Source: Gemmatimonadota bacterium (GTDB taxonomy: Bacteria; Gemmatimonadota; Gemmatimonadetes; Gemmatimonadales; Gemmatimonadaceae). From it: a stretch of 64,000 nt of DNA. The stretch lies in NCBI GenBank assembly GCA_023249375.1, contig JAHFCT010000004.1, positions 62,001 to 126,000 of the forward strand, read 5' to 3'. The notes under the pieces are model-generated. The model saw nothing but the letters and a program-made list of their open reading frames with translations, made no database searches and was not told where the DNA came from. Of this stretch, positions 40,686-45,007 are shown piece by piece. Position 1 is the stretch's first letter. Every line of letters begins with the position of its first letter. The position numbers were made by a program, and so were the translations under genes.

Positions 40686-41380
40686 GCGGCTCACTCCCGC
40701 CGCGCGAACGCGTCGCCTCGTTCGCCGTGCTGGGACTCACCGCGTTCACCACCACACGCGACGCCGGCAGCTTCGGCTTTACGGACGACGCCCCGGTGCG
40801 TGAGGTCAACGAACGCTGGCTCGGGCTGGTGCGCGCCACGGGCGGACGGCTCGCCTCGGCGCACCAGGTGCACGGCACGAAGATCGTTACGCACGCCGCC
40901 GGGTGGGACGGTTGGCTGCGCATCGACTCCGCCGACGGCCATGTGACGGCGCATCACGACACCGCGATGGTCATCTCCATCGCCGACTGCGTGCCCGTGT
41001 TCATGGGACATCCGAACGGAGCGTCCGCGCTGCTGCACGCCGGATGGCGAGGCGTCGCCGGTGGCATTCTCGAGGGCGGAATCCGCGCGCTCAAGGCGAT
41101 GGGATGCCAGCCGTCAGAACTCGTCGTGCATCTCGGCCCCTCCATTTGCGGCGCATGCTACGAGGTCGGGCCCGACGTGTATGCCCAGCTTATGCGTCGC
41201 ACCATCGATCACCCGGCCACCGTCGACCTTCGCGCGCTGCTCGCCGATCAGGCGCGGATTGCCGGAGTCAAGCAGGTTGAGGTGAGCGCCTGTTGCACGC
41301 GGTGCCACAACGATCGCTTCTACTCCCACCGCGCTGGCGATTCGGCGCGGCAGGTAGCCGTCATCGCGCCGTCCGCATAA
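40682..41380 (+). CDS. pgeF: Peptidoglycan editing factor / purine nucleoside phosphorylase-like laccase-domain protein
   Basis: The 232-residue protein belongs to the YfiH/PgeF (DUF152) family: ASAHQVHG with a zinc His, ISIADCVPVFM with the conserved Cys, and LLHAGWRGVAGGIL with the second His. Members show purine nucleoside phosphorylase/adenosine deaminase activity in vitro and help keep peptidoglycan free of L-Ser in E. coli. The location directly after murA, with a 4-base overlap, fits a peptidoglycan-quality role. ATG at 40682 is the natural start. It is followed after 9 bases by a histidine kinase. Confidence 0.92.
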   Translation: MSGSLPPRERVASFAVLGLTAFTTTRDAGSFGFTDDAPVREVNERWLGLVRATGGRLASAHQVHGTKIVTHAAGWDGWLRIDSADGHVTAHHDTAMVISIADCVPVFMGHPNGASALLHAGWRGVAGGILEGGIRALKAMGCQPSELVVHLGPSICGACYEVGPDVYAQLMRRTIDHPATVDLRALLADQARIAGVKQVEVSACCTRCHNDRFYSHRAGDSARQVAVIAPSA

Positions 41381-41389
41381 GCTGAACGC

Positions 41390-42709
41390 ATGCCCAGCGC
41401 GGAGTCGTTGCCCCGGTCGTCGCTGCATGCGCGCACCACGCTCATGAGGGCCACGAGCGTGACGGTGCTCGTCGTCTGGGTCCCGACCCTCTTTGCCAGT
41501 ACCATTCTCGCGAGGCGGGAAGGGCAGGTTCCGCTCTACGCGTTCGTCACCTCAATCGCGACGCTGGCGAGCCTTCTCACGTGGCGTCCATCGAGGCGCT
41601 ACCTCGAATGGCAAGCCGGCGCGTTCTCGGCGCTGGTCTTCATCGGCCTCGCGGCGGCCCTGCTTCGCAACGGCCCACAGCCGATGGGTGCGTCCGCCGG
41701 CGCGGTCTGGGTTGCGTGGACCACGCTCTTCTTCGGCTGGCGCGGTCTGACCGCGTCGCTTGGCGCTCTCGCGCCGGTCTACATGTTCGCCTGGTGGCGC
41801 TTCACCCACGGTGCCGTCGTCCCCGCCGCGATGTTCGAGGCGACCGATCATAACTACTGGCTCCGCATTTTTCCGTTTCTGATGGCGACGTTTTTGCTCG
41901 CCGGACTCGTGGTGCGTGCAAGCGTGCGCGCGTTCGAAGGCGCCCTCCGGCTCGAACGCGATGCCATGGCCGCGGCTGCCCACGAAGAGACCGCTCGTAT
42001 GCTGGCACAGGCGCAGGCGGAGGTACTCCAGCGGCGACAGATCGTCGGCGCGCTCGCGAGCGAACTCGCCCACGACCTCAACAATGTCATCTCCGTCACG
42101 TCCGCTGGTGCCGAAGTACTCCTCGAAGCGGTCACTGACGAGGAACGGCGAGCCGCGATCGATCAAATCATCGACGCCAACGAGCGAGCCACGCTGATGG
42201 TGCGCGAGTTGCTCGCGCTCGGCCGCTCCGTCGACCGGTCGTCCGGCGAGTTCGACGGCGCGCGCGTCATGAAACGCGTCTCGCAGTTGATTCGGCGGAC
42301 CCTGCCGGCGGCGATCACCCTTGAGTGCAGCAACGATGCGCAATGTCTGATGGTAGGCGACGAGTTGCGTTTTGAGCAGGCCGTCCTCAACCTCGCGCTG
42401 AACGCGCGCGATGCCATGCCGCAGGGCGGTACGCTCGCCGTGTCGCTGCGCTGCGCCTCGGATGCCGAGTGCCGTCTCGACGTGCGAGACACCGGTGTTG
42501 GAATCCCTCCCGAGCTGCGCGAACAGATCTTCACGCCGTTCTTCTCGACCAAGTCTGCCACCGAAGGCAGCGGCTTGGGCCTCGCGATGGTGGCGCGCGT
42601 CGCGCAGGACATGGGTGGGCGCGTGCTGGTCGACAGCACCATTGGCGAAGGCTCCATCTTCACGGTCTTCTGGCCGCGTGGGTGCGGGGATTCGTCGAAC
42701 GAGTCTTGA
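41390..42709 (+). CDS. Membrane sensor histidine kinase with multi-helix N-terminal sensor
   Basis: The 439-residue kinase has about five or six membrane helices in residues 15-180 (VTVLVVWVPTLFASTIL, AFSALVFIGLAAALL, PFLMATFLLAGLVV), then a helical linker, HisKA with phospho-acceptor His228 in SELAHDLNNVIS, and HATPase motifs (NARDAMPQGG, DTGVGIP, GSGLGLAMVARV). A sensor made only of membrane helices suggests intramembrane stimulus detection. No regulator gene is adjacent. Its last codons overlap the strong promoter of the rimP operon. Confidence 0.92.
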   Translation: MPSAESLPRSSLHARTTLMRATSVTVLVVWVPTLFASTILARREGQVPLYAFVTSIATLASLLTWRPSRRYLEWQAGAFSALVFIGLAAALLRNGPQPMGASAGAVWVAWTTLFFGWRGLTASLGALAPVYMFAWWRFTHGAVVPAAMFEATDHNYWLRIFPFLMATFLLAGLVVRASVRAFEGALRLERDAMAAAAHEETARMLAQAQAEVLQRRQIVGALASELAHDLNNVISVTSAGAEVLLEAVTDEERRAAIDQIIDANERATLMVRELLALGRSVDRSSGEFDGARVMKRVSQLIRRTLPAAITLECSNDAQCLMVGDELRFEQAVLNLALNARDAMPQGGTLAVSLRCASDAECRLDVRDTGVGIPPELREQIFTPFFSTKSATEGSGLGLAMVARVAQDMGGRVLVDSTIGEGSIFTVFWPRGCGDSSNES

Positions 42710-42734
42710 CGGTACGCGTCGCGGCATCTATAAT
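42706..42734 (+). promoter_or_regulatory. Near-consensus sigma-70 promoter of the rimP-nusA-infB operon
   Basis: TTGACG (42706-42711), a 17-base spacer and a perfect TATAAT (42729-42734) form the best promoter in the window. Transcription should begin near 42741, about 28 bases before the leader terminator hairpin and 80 bases before the rimP start. Confidence 0.85.
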
Positions 42735-42768
42735 ACTTGGGCTGGGCGGGGCGCGTGACCGCCTTGGG

Positions 42769-42796
42769 AATGTGGGGTCGCCCCCCACATTTTTTT
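42769..42796 (+). terminator. Intrinsic terminator in the leader of rimP-nusA (likely attenuator)
   Basis: AATGTGGGG (42769-42777) pairs perfectly with CCCCACATT (42783-42791) around a 5-base loop and is followed by an unbroken T run (42792-42796). It lies downstream of the operon promoter and upstream of rimP, so operon transcripts must read through it. An upstream GGGGCG (42748-42753) can pair with CGCCCC (42779-42784) in the loop and 3' arm, which would break the hairpin and could act as an antiterminator. Confidence 0.8.
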
Positions 42797-42820
42797 GTCT
42801 TTATCGGGGAACTTCTTCAA

Positions 42821-43288
42821 GTGAAGCAGACACTGGAACCCATTGTCACTGCTGCACTTGAGTCTTTGGGGTTTGACCTCGTCGAGTTGCGCGTCGGTGG
42901 TACTCGCCAGCGGCCGTTGCTTGACGTGCGCATCGATCGCCGTGACCAGCAAAAGGTCACGGTGGACGATTGCGCAGGGGCATCACGCGCGATCGAAGCA
43001 CGACTGGACGCTGATCCGTCGCTCTTTGGTGAGCGCTATGTGCTCGAGGTGTCGTCGCCGGGAATGGAACGGCCGCTGCGCACCGAAGGCGACTGGCGTC
43101 GCTTCACGGGTCGCAAGGCCAACGTGAAAAGCGCCGTGCTCGGCGGACGCATGGAAGTGGAAATTGTCGGAGTCGAGGATGACACGGGCACGCCGCGCCT
43201 GCGCCTCCGCGACGGAAAGGGGAATGAGCACCTGCTCGGGCTGGCCGAAGTGGATGAGGCCCGCCTGGCGTTCAACTGGAAACCGTAA
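42821..43288 (+). CDS. rimP: Ribosome maturation factor RimP
   Basis: RimP helps mature the 30S subunit. The 155-residue protein has the family core LESLGFDLVELRVGG, DVRIDRRDQQKVTVDDC and ERYVLEVSSPGMERPL. The GTG at 42821 (KQTLEPIVTAAL) fits homologues; a frame extending upstream would read through the leader terminator. It is 11 bases before nusA and opens the classic rimP-nusA-infB-rbfA-truB-ribF operon. Confidence 0.94.
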   Translation: MKQTLEPIVTAALESLGFDLVELRVGGTRQRPLLDVRIDRRDQQKVTVDDCAGASRAIEARLDADPSLFGERYVLEVSSPGMERPLRTEGDWRRFTGRKANVKSAVLGGRMEVEIVGVEDDTGTPRLRLRDGKGNEHLLGLAEVDEARLAFNWKP

Positions 43289-43299
43289 CGAGGTCCCGG

Positions 43300-44646
43300 A
43301 TGTCCGGATCGGCTGAAATCCTTGCTGCGTTCCGCGAGTTGTCAAACGCGAAGCAGATCGACCGCGCGGAGCTGCATGCCCTGCTGACGGACGGCATTCA
43401 TGCCGCCCTCGCCAAGAAGCACGGGCCCAACGTCCAAGCCGATATCTCCATCGACGAGGGGCGCGGCGAGATCCGCATCGTCCTGCTGAAGACCGTCGTC
43501 GAGAAGGTCGAGGATGCCGGTCGCGAGATCACGCTCGAAGAAGCGCAGTTCGAGGATCCAGAGTTCGCCGTTGGCGACATCATGGAAGAACCCGTTGAGT
43601 TCGCCGAGTTCGGGCGGTCGGCGGTGCAAGCGGCCAAGCAGCGCATCATCCAGCGCGTGCGCGAAGGCGAGCGCACGAAGATTCGCGACGAGTTCTCTGG
43701 GCGCGTCGGCGATTTGCTCTCGGGCGAAATCCAGCAGATTGAGCGCGGCAAAATTGTCGTGATGCTCAACAAGTTCCGCGAAGCCGAAGCGATCATTCCG
43801 TATCGCGAGCAGAATCACCGCGAAGACTACAAGCAGGGCGAGCCGCTGCGTTCGGTGCTCAAGAAGATCGAGGAGACGCCCAAGGGGCCGCGCCTCGTGC
43901 TCTCACGCGCCGATCCGATGTTTGTGCAGGCGCTCTTCAAGCTCGAAGTCCCCGAGATTCAGCAGGGCATCGTCGAGATCAAGGCCTCATCGCGGGAATG
44001 CGGCAGCCGCACCAAGATCGCCGTGGTCTCGAAGGATGACGCCATCGATCCGGTGGGCGCGTGCGTGGGCCTCAAGGGCGCGCGCGTGCAGGCCGTCGTC
44101 CAGGAACTCGGCGGAGAACGCATCGACATCGTGCCGTGGTCGCCCGATCCCGAGCGCTTTGCCAAGCTTGCGCTCGCGCCCGCCAAGGTCGCGCGCGTCT
44201 TCAGCGATGCGGCCACCAAGACCATTCAGGCGGTTGTCGACGAGGACCAACTCTCGCTGGCCATCGGCCGCAACGGTCAGAACGTGCGCCTTGCGTCGGA
44301 GATCACCGGCTGGAAGATAGACCTGTACTCAAGCCGCGAATGGCTCGAGCGCGGCGGCGACATGCCGCTCTTCCAGCCGCTGCCAGAAGACGAGGACGCC
44401 GCCGCCGACGTGCATCTCTCCGCCATTGAAGGACTGCCGCCGGCCACGGTGGCGGTGCTTGAGGCGGGCGGGTTCCGCACGCTGAATGACATCATCGACC
44501 TCGAGCGCGACGACTTCCTGCGCTTGCCGGGCATCGCGCCCGAAGAGGCCGATCGCATCATTGCGCTGATCAACGAACTCACAACCGACGACAATAGCGG
44601 TGAGCAGGCGGCAGGCGACGCCGGCGCCGAGACGGCGGACGCGTGA
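43300..44646 (+). CDS. nusA: Transcription termination/antitermination protein NusA
   Basis: NusA binds RNA polymerase and controls pausing, termination and antitermination. The 448 residues include the N-terminal polymerase-binding domain (LTDGIHAALAKKHG), an S1 domain, KH domains (AVVQELGGERIDIVPW, IGRNGQNVRLASEITGWKIDLYS) and one C-terminal helix-hairpin-helix region (EAGGFRTLNDIIDLERDDFLRLPGIA split over residues 400-425). The presence of a terminator in the operon leader makes feedback by NusA plausible, as in other bacteria. Length is normal. Confidence 0.96.
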   Translation: MSGSAEILAAFRELSNAKQIDRAELHALLTDGIHAALAKKHGPNVQADISIDEGRGEIRIVLLKTVVEKVEDAGREITLEEAQFEDPEFAVGDIMEEPVEFAEFGRSAVQAAKQRIIQRVREGERTKIRDEFSGRVGDLLSGEIQQIERGKIVVMLNKFREAEAIIPYREQNHREDYKQGEPLRSVLKKIEETPKGPRLVLSRADPMFVQALFKLEVPEIQQGIVEIKASSRECGSRTKIAVVSKDDAIDPVGACVGLKGARVQAVVQELGGERIDIVPWSPDPERFAKLALAPAKVARVFSDAATKTIQAVVDEDQLSLAIGRNGQNVRLASEITGWKIDLYSSREWLERGGDMPLFQPLPEDEDAAADVHLSAIEGLPPATVAVLEAGGFRTLNDIIDLERDDFLRLPGIAPEEADRIIALINELTTDDNSGEQAAGDAGAETADA

Positions 44647-44665
44647 GTGTGAAGGTGTGCGGGTG

Positions 44666-44989
44666 ATGGACGCGGTGCTGCGCCGCCGGCTGCTCGGGCT
44701 CGCTGGGCTCGGCGTCCGGGGGCGCAACGCGGTGGTTGGAGTAGACCAGACGCGGGCGGCGGCGCTGGCTGGCACGCTGCGGGTGGCGCTGGTTGCTGCG
44801 GATGCATCGCGGCACAGCCGTGACAAAGTGGTTCCGATGGTGACGGCGAAGGGCATCACGATGATTGACGGCTTCACGGTGTCCGAACTGGGCGCCATTG
44901 TCGGGCGGGACGCGACGGCGGTGATCGGTATCGTCGACGCGGCGTTGGCGAAAGGAATTCGCGGAGCGCTCGGCTCCGCGGGCGAGTAG
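44666..44989 (+). CDS. ylxQ: L7Ae/YlxQ family RNA-binding protein
   Basis: The 107-residue protein lies between nusA and infB, the usual place for YlxQ. It has the L7Ae/L30e pattern with an LLGLAGLGVRGRNAVVGVDQ start, LVAADASRHSRDKVVPM and a C-terminal GAIVGRDATAVIGI segment. Such proteins bind kink-turn RNA; for YlxQ the target is unknown. The DUF448/YlxR gene that usually lies directly before it is absent here. ATG 44666 is chosen over the GTG three bases earlier. It is 18 bases from infB. Confidence 0.85.
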   Translation: MDAVLRRRLLGLAGLGVRGRNAVVGVDQTRAAALAGTLRVALVAADASRHSRDKVVPMVTAKGITMIDGFTVSELGAIVGRDATAVIGIVDAALAKGIRGALGSAGE

Positions 44990-45007
44990 CAGCACGAGGG
45001 AGGCAGT

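Follow-up and report, generated by a model that had tools for sequence, protein, structure and literature searches.

A conserved terminator ahead of rimP-nusA in the Gemmatimonadota and its probable role in attenuation by NusA

Attenuation ahead of rimP is known from the 'rimP-leader' terminator of Naville & Gautheret 2010 (PMC2965389), which is there called the most ubiquitous attenuator and read as protein-controlled attenuation with NusA as the best candidate. In its general form (PMC2965389, Fig. 2b), a Rho-independent terminator lies in the 5' UTR of rimP-nusA-infB, 4-130 nt from the gene start, and combines a G-rich 5' arm, a C-rich 3' arm and a T-stretch with a conserved stem sequence and no visible antiterminator. 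The passages of that paper on hosts name Firmicutes and Gammaproteobacteria, not Gemmatimonadota. A related case is the B. subtilis nusA leader, in which NusA-stimulated intrinsic termination is reported to underlie NusA autoregulation (Mondal et al. 2016, as cited in PMC12288461). Rfam holds a rimP family, RF01770, with the same gene context and a 102-position model.

The window analysed here is a 64,000-nucleotide stretch from the genome of a Gemmatimonadota bacterium (GCA_023249375.1), and the leader features, rimP and nusA given below lie on its + strand. The operon runs in the order rimP, nusA, infB, rbfA. Its first gene, rimP (42821-43288; 155 aa; PF02576, E 3e-18), has a GTG start and is followed by nusA (43300-44646; 448 aa; PF08529, E 1.3e-31; PF13184, E 1.7e-28), which encodes the presumed feedback factor. 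Upstream of rimP, sequence reading, a promoter scan and the relatives all point to a sigma70-type promoter, TTGACG-N17-TATAAT (42706-42734), with the -35 at 42706-42711, the -10 at 42729-42734, a spacer of 17, 11 of 12 consensus matches and a predicted start at ~42741. It is the only promoter-like site that the scan finds in 41000-45000, for which shuffles give 0.3, and its -35 shares bases with the stop codon that ends a histidine kinase gene (41390-42709). Between the predicted start and the terminator, folding and the genus members support a small GC-rich hairpin, P1 (GGGCGG / CCGCCT, 42744-42764). Beyond it, 34 nt past the -10 box, comes a perfect 9-bp hairpin with the conserved rimP-leader stem, AATGTGGGG-TCGCC-CCCCACATT (42769-42791; dG = -15.6 kcal/mol, z = -2.7 against shuffles), and then the T7 run of an intrinsic terminator (42790-42796), some 60 bases past the promoter. 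The RNA 3' end is predicted at this run, which would give a terminated RNA of ~56 nt. The rimP GTG start lies 24 nt past the T-run, so that no transcript, wherever it originates, could reach rimP without crossing the terminator. The terminator comes after the promoter, which rules out insulation of the upstream kinase gene as its only role.

An earlier note on this DNA had proposed both the promoter and the premature terminator ahead of rimP-nusA, along with a search for the same layout in related genomes. Sequence reading bears the proposal out, as does strong conservation. A terminator scan of 41000-45000 is by itself weak evidence, with 4 terminator-like sites found and 2.0 expected; at the level of sequence it is conservation in relatives that is decisive. 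RimP searches across the phylum yielded the rimP upstream regions of 114 genomes from 9 families, on which we ran a terminator scan that presumes no stem sequence, together with a pattern count. In 113 of the 114, rimP is closely preceded by a G-rich/C-rich hairpin with a T-run; the sole genome with no recognisable terminator before rimP belongs to family f5 (G076, locus L092). The stem is of the GTGGGG type in 98 of these hairpins, GCGGGC-like in 13 and GTCGGG in 2, the usual RNA stem being GUGGGG...CCCCAC. The T-run is conserved as well, while the hairpin flanks are not, and across the phylum little of the leader sequence is conserved beyond the terminator stem.

The stem sequence is all but confined to this one site. 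The window's genome contains the motif TGTGGGGN{2,9}CCCCACA a single time, and across 121 genomes the stem pattern gives about one match per genome where present, nearly all at rimP, against 1 match for a reversed control pattern; the motif is not shared with other terminators. Compensatory changes are found within the stem: pair -1 is TA in 56 genomes and AT in 41, pair 1 is TA, TG or CG, and pairs 2 and 5 are GC or CG. Column frequencies and the core stem pairs are partly circular here, the hairpins having been found by pattern, but the free terminator scan and stem pairs -1 to -3 are not. Such changes imply that the stem acts as RNA, and together with the one-sided T-run they favour RNA over a DNA operator palindrome, which was rejected. 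Despite them the stem is unusually constant in sequence.

After the T-run, at 42797-42801 in the window and at the matching place in relatives, [GA]TT or GTCT is often present, in many genomes as TTTTTTTGTTC. This loosely conserved extension may belong to the terminator or be a degenerate boxA. A boxA proper after the T-run was rejected, as GTCTTT/GTTCT is only loosely similar to one and weakly conserved. Just past the window end, on the same strand as the rimP-nusA operon and ~20 kb beyond it, lies a 16S rRNA gene (G000:C103:126530-128053) whose leader has a boxA-like TTGTTTGACAA. A leader peptide with ribosome-mediated attenuation was also discarded: of the start codons present in the leaders of the 9 genus members, most fall in or beside the terminator stem, and the few that lie upstream of it are not common to the members.

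Most of the 113 hairpin-bearing relatives have a promoter-like site at a similar spacing before the hairpin. The best sigma70-like site upstream of it scores 8.6 on average, compared with 6.6 in shuffles, and a score of 9 or more is reached in 47% of relatives and 1.7% of shuffles. By the predicted start-to-hairpin distance the leaders form two classes. Class A, which includes the window and families f1 and f3-f7, has mostly 22-57 nt from predicted start to hairpin and contains the P1 hairpin. The P1 region folds better than shuffles in 38 of 43 f1, 7 of 7 f3 and 20 of 22 f5 members; P1 is paired in all 9 genus members, each of which keeps the structure of P1 plus terminator. Class B has its predicted start only 3-10 nt before the hairpin and comprises 18 relatives: 13 from f2, one from f8 and 4 of the 5 genomes of f9, a distant class. 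Class B loci include L041, L043, L048, L109, L110 and L114 in f2 and L062, L068 and L106 in f9. In several lineages the predicted terminated RNA is only ~30-40 nt long. It is possible, though we put it forward tentatively and hold it doubtful, that class B is a near-minimal, sequence-specific attenuator read by NusA, in which termination would come at about +30 to +40, close to promoter escape, and only the hairpin and polymerase factors would be left to control it.

The same stem is also present, in exact copies, outside the phylum. We scanned the genomes of 84,980 species with the pattern AGTGGGGN{3,8}CCCCACTTTTTT; the scan, which shows presence rather than frequency, returned at least 120 loci. 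Among the 120 listed, 39 have the motif no more than 450 nt upstream of a RimP gene, and these are mostly Chlorobiaceae, with several Gemmatimonadota, one Nitrospirae MAG and one cyanobacterial MAG. An AGTGGGG..CCCCACTTTTTT hairpin stands before rimP at L126 and in other Chlorobiaceae (green sulfur bacteria), and at L137 and L158, the set including the Nitrospirae and cyanobacterial MAGs.

Set beside the described systems, the Gemmatimonadota rimP leader is this phylum's version of a known and very widespread switch, not a new kind. It shares with the general form in PMC2965389 the Rho-independent terminator in the 5' UTR of rimP-nusA-infB, the distance to the gene start, the asymmetric arms with their T-stretch and conserved stem, and the lack of a visible antiterminator or any larger conserved element. 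All testable defining features of that form are present except that GUGGGG/CCCCAC replaces the exact published GGGc/gCCC stem. G-rich and C-rich arms with a GGG/CCC core occur in nearly all genomes, the flanking pair being g/c in the window and most relatives; the GGGC/GCCC form, with c/g flanking and hence the exact GGGc(...)gCCC signature, is confined to 13 f2 genomes. With B. subtilis NusA autoregulation the locus has in common an intrinsic terminator in the leader of a NusA-encoding operon, but that leader is ~180 nt long (PMC2965389), compared with ~56 nt to the terminator here, where the link to NusA would hold by analogy. RF01770 had no match in the window's genome even at E 10, and so none at its gathering threshold of 47 bits; an Rfam scan of 42000-43600 returned noise matches only.

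The earlier note had further proposed an antiterminator in which GGGGCG (42748-42753) pairs with CGCCCC (42779-42784). The two hexamers are where it placed them and are complementary, and overlapping alternative folds do appear transiently at RNA ends 42782-42788, as a classical antiterminator/terminator switch might have it. As a functional switch, the proposal finds no support. When forced, the pairing comes out 6.3 kcal/mol less stable than the terminator fold, and completion of the 3' arm brings its probability to below 1%. Of its 6 pairs, 3 hold in every one of the nine genus members and three are broken in some, with no double (compensatory) change. Competing folds that occupy the 3' arm gain nothing from the real 5' leader over a shuffled one (mean z about -0.2 in f1 and 0.04 in f5). 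Folding, genus members and shuffled leaders alike thus give no conserved pairing mutually exclusive with the terminator. In class B, moreover, the hairpin is predicted to begin at about +3 to +10, which leaves no RNA in which an antiterminator could form. We consider such a switch highly improbable; the GGGGCG/CGCCCC antiterminator is not supported and should be dropped.

The best explanation, and a probable one, is attenuation of the rimP-nusA leader by NusA feedback, which the earlier note had also considered likely. A constitutive-looking promoter would begin transcription at ~42741, and the nascent RNA would fold first into P1 and next into the rimP-leader terminator. Some of the RNA polymerase would halt at ~42796 and release the ~56-nt RNA, while the remainder would read through into rimP-nusA-infB-rbfA. 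The read-through fraction would most likely be set by NusA itself: high NusA would stabilise the hairpin-paused complex and raise termination, and low NusA would lower it, a negative feedback with no alternative RNA structure. That termination takes place here, with NusA as the factor, is our inference from this anatomy and by analogy; NusA dependence is plausible as carried over from Bacillus and E. coli genetics. Because the terminator is very stable, the scope for its modulation by NusA may be small.

Control by NusA would be indistinguishable in sequence from control by RimP or IF2 or from plain fixed-ratio attenuation. A terminator that, unregulated, lets through a constant small share of transcription would suit a strong promoter followed by a strong terminator and the lack of a supported alternative fold, but a plain terminator needs only any GC-rich stem, whereas the primary sequence of this one is kept across several phyla, and we regard the fixed ratio as unlikely. 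That same sequence-specific conservation could instead reflect recognition of the GUGGGG/CCCCAC stem by RimP, IF2 or a further RNA-binding protein that controls termination. This is decidedly unlikely: it is NusA that has the precedent, and we know of no RNA motif for RimP. RimP does interact with rRNA, and it is named as a possibility in PMC2965389. The terminated ~56-nt RNA might also be a functional small RNA acting in trans, given that it comes from a discrete promoter-terminator unit and that an enterobacterial rimP leader RNA has been reported among ProQ-associated sRNAs (PMC5391140), but little is conserved outside the stem and several lineages would make only the shortest RNAs described above, so that we see next to no chance of it.

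The modest novelty lies in the survey across the phylum, with the near-minimal class B as part of it. The rimP-leader attenuator is thereby extended across the Gemmatimonadota with strong comparative support and with a stem sequence common to the Chlorobiaceae, and the result speaks against seeking an antiterminator in the rimP leader. The near-minimal forms make the reading of the conserved stem by NusA, or by another factor, directly testable in a very small system.
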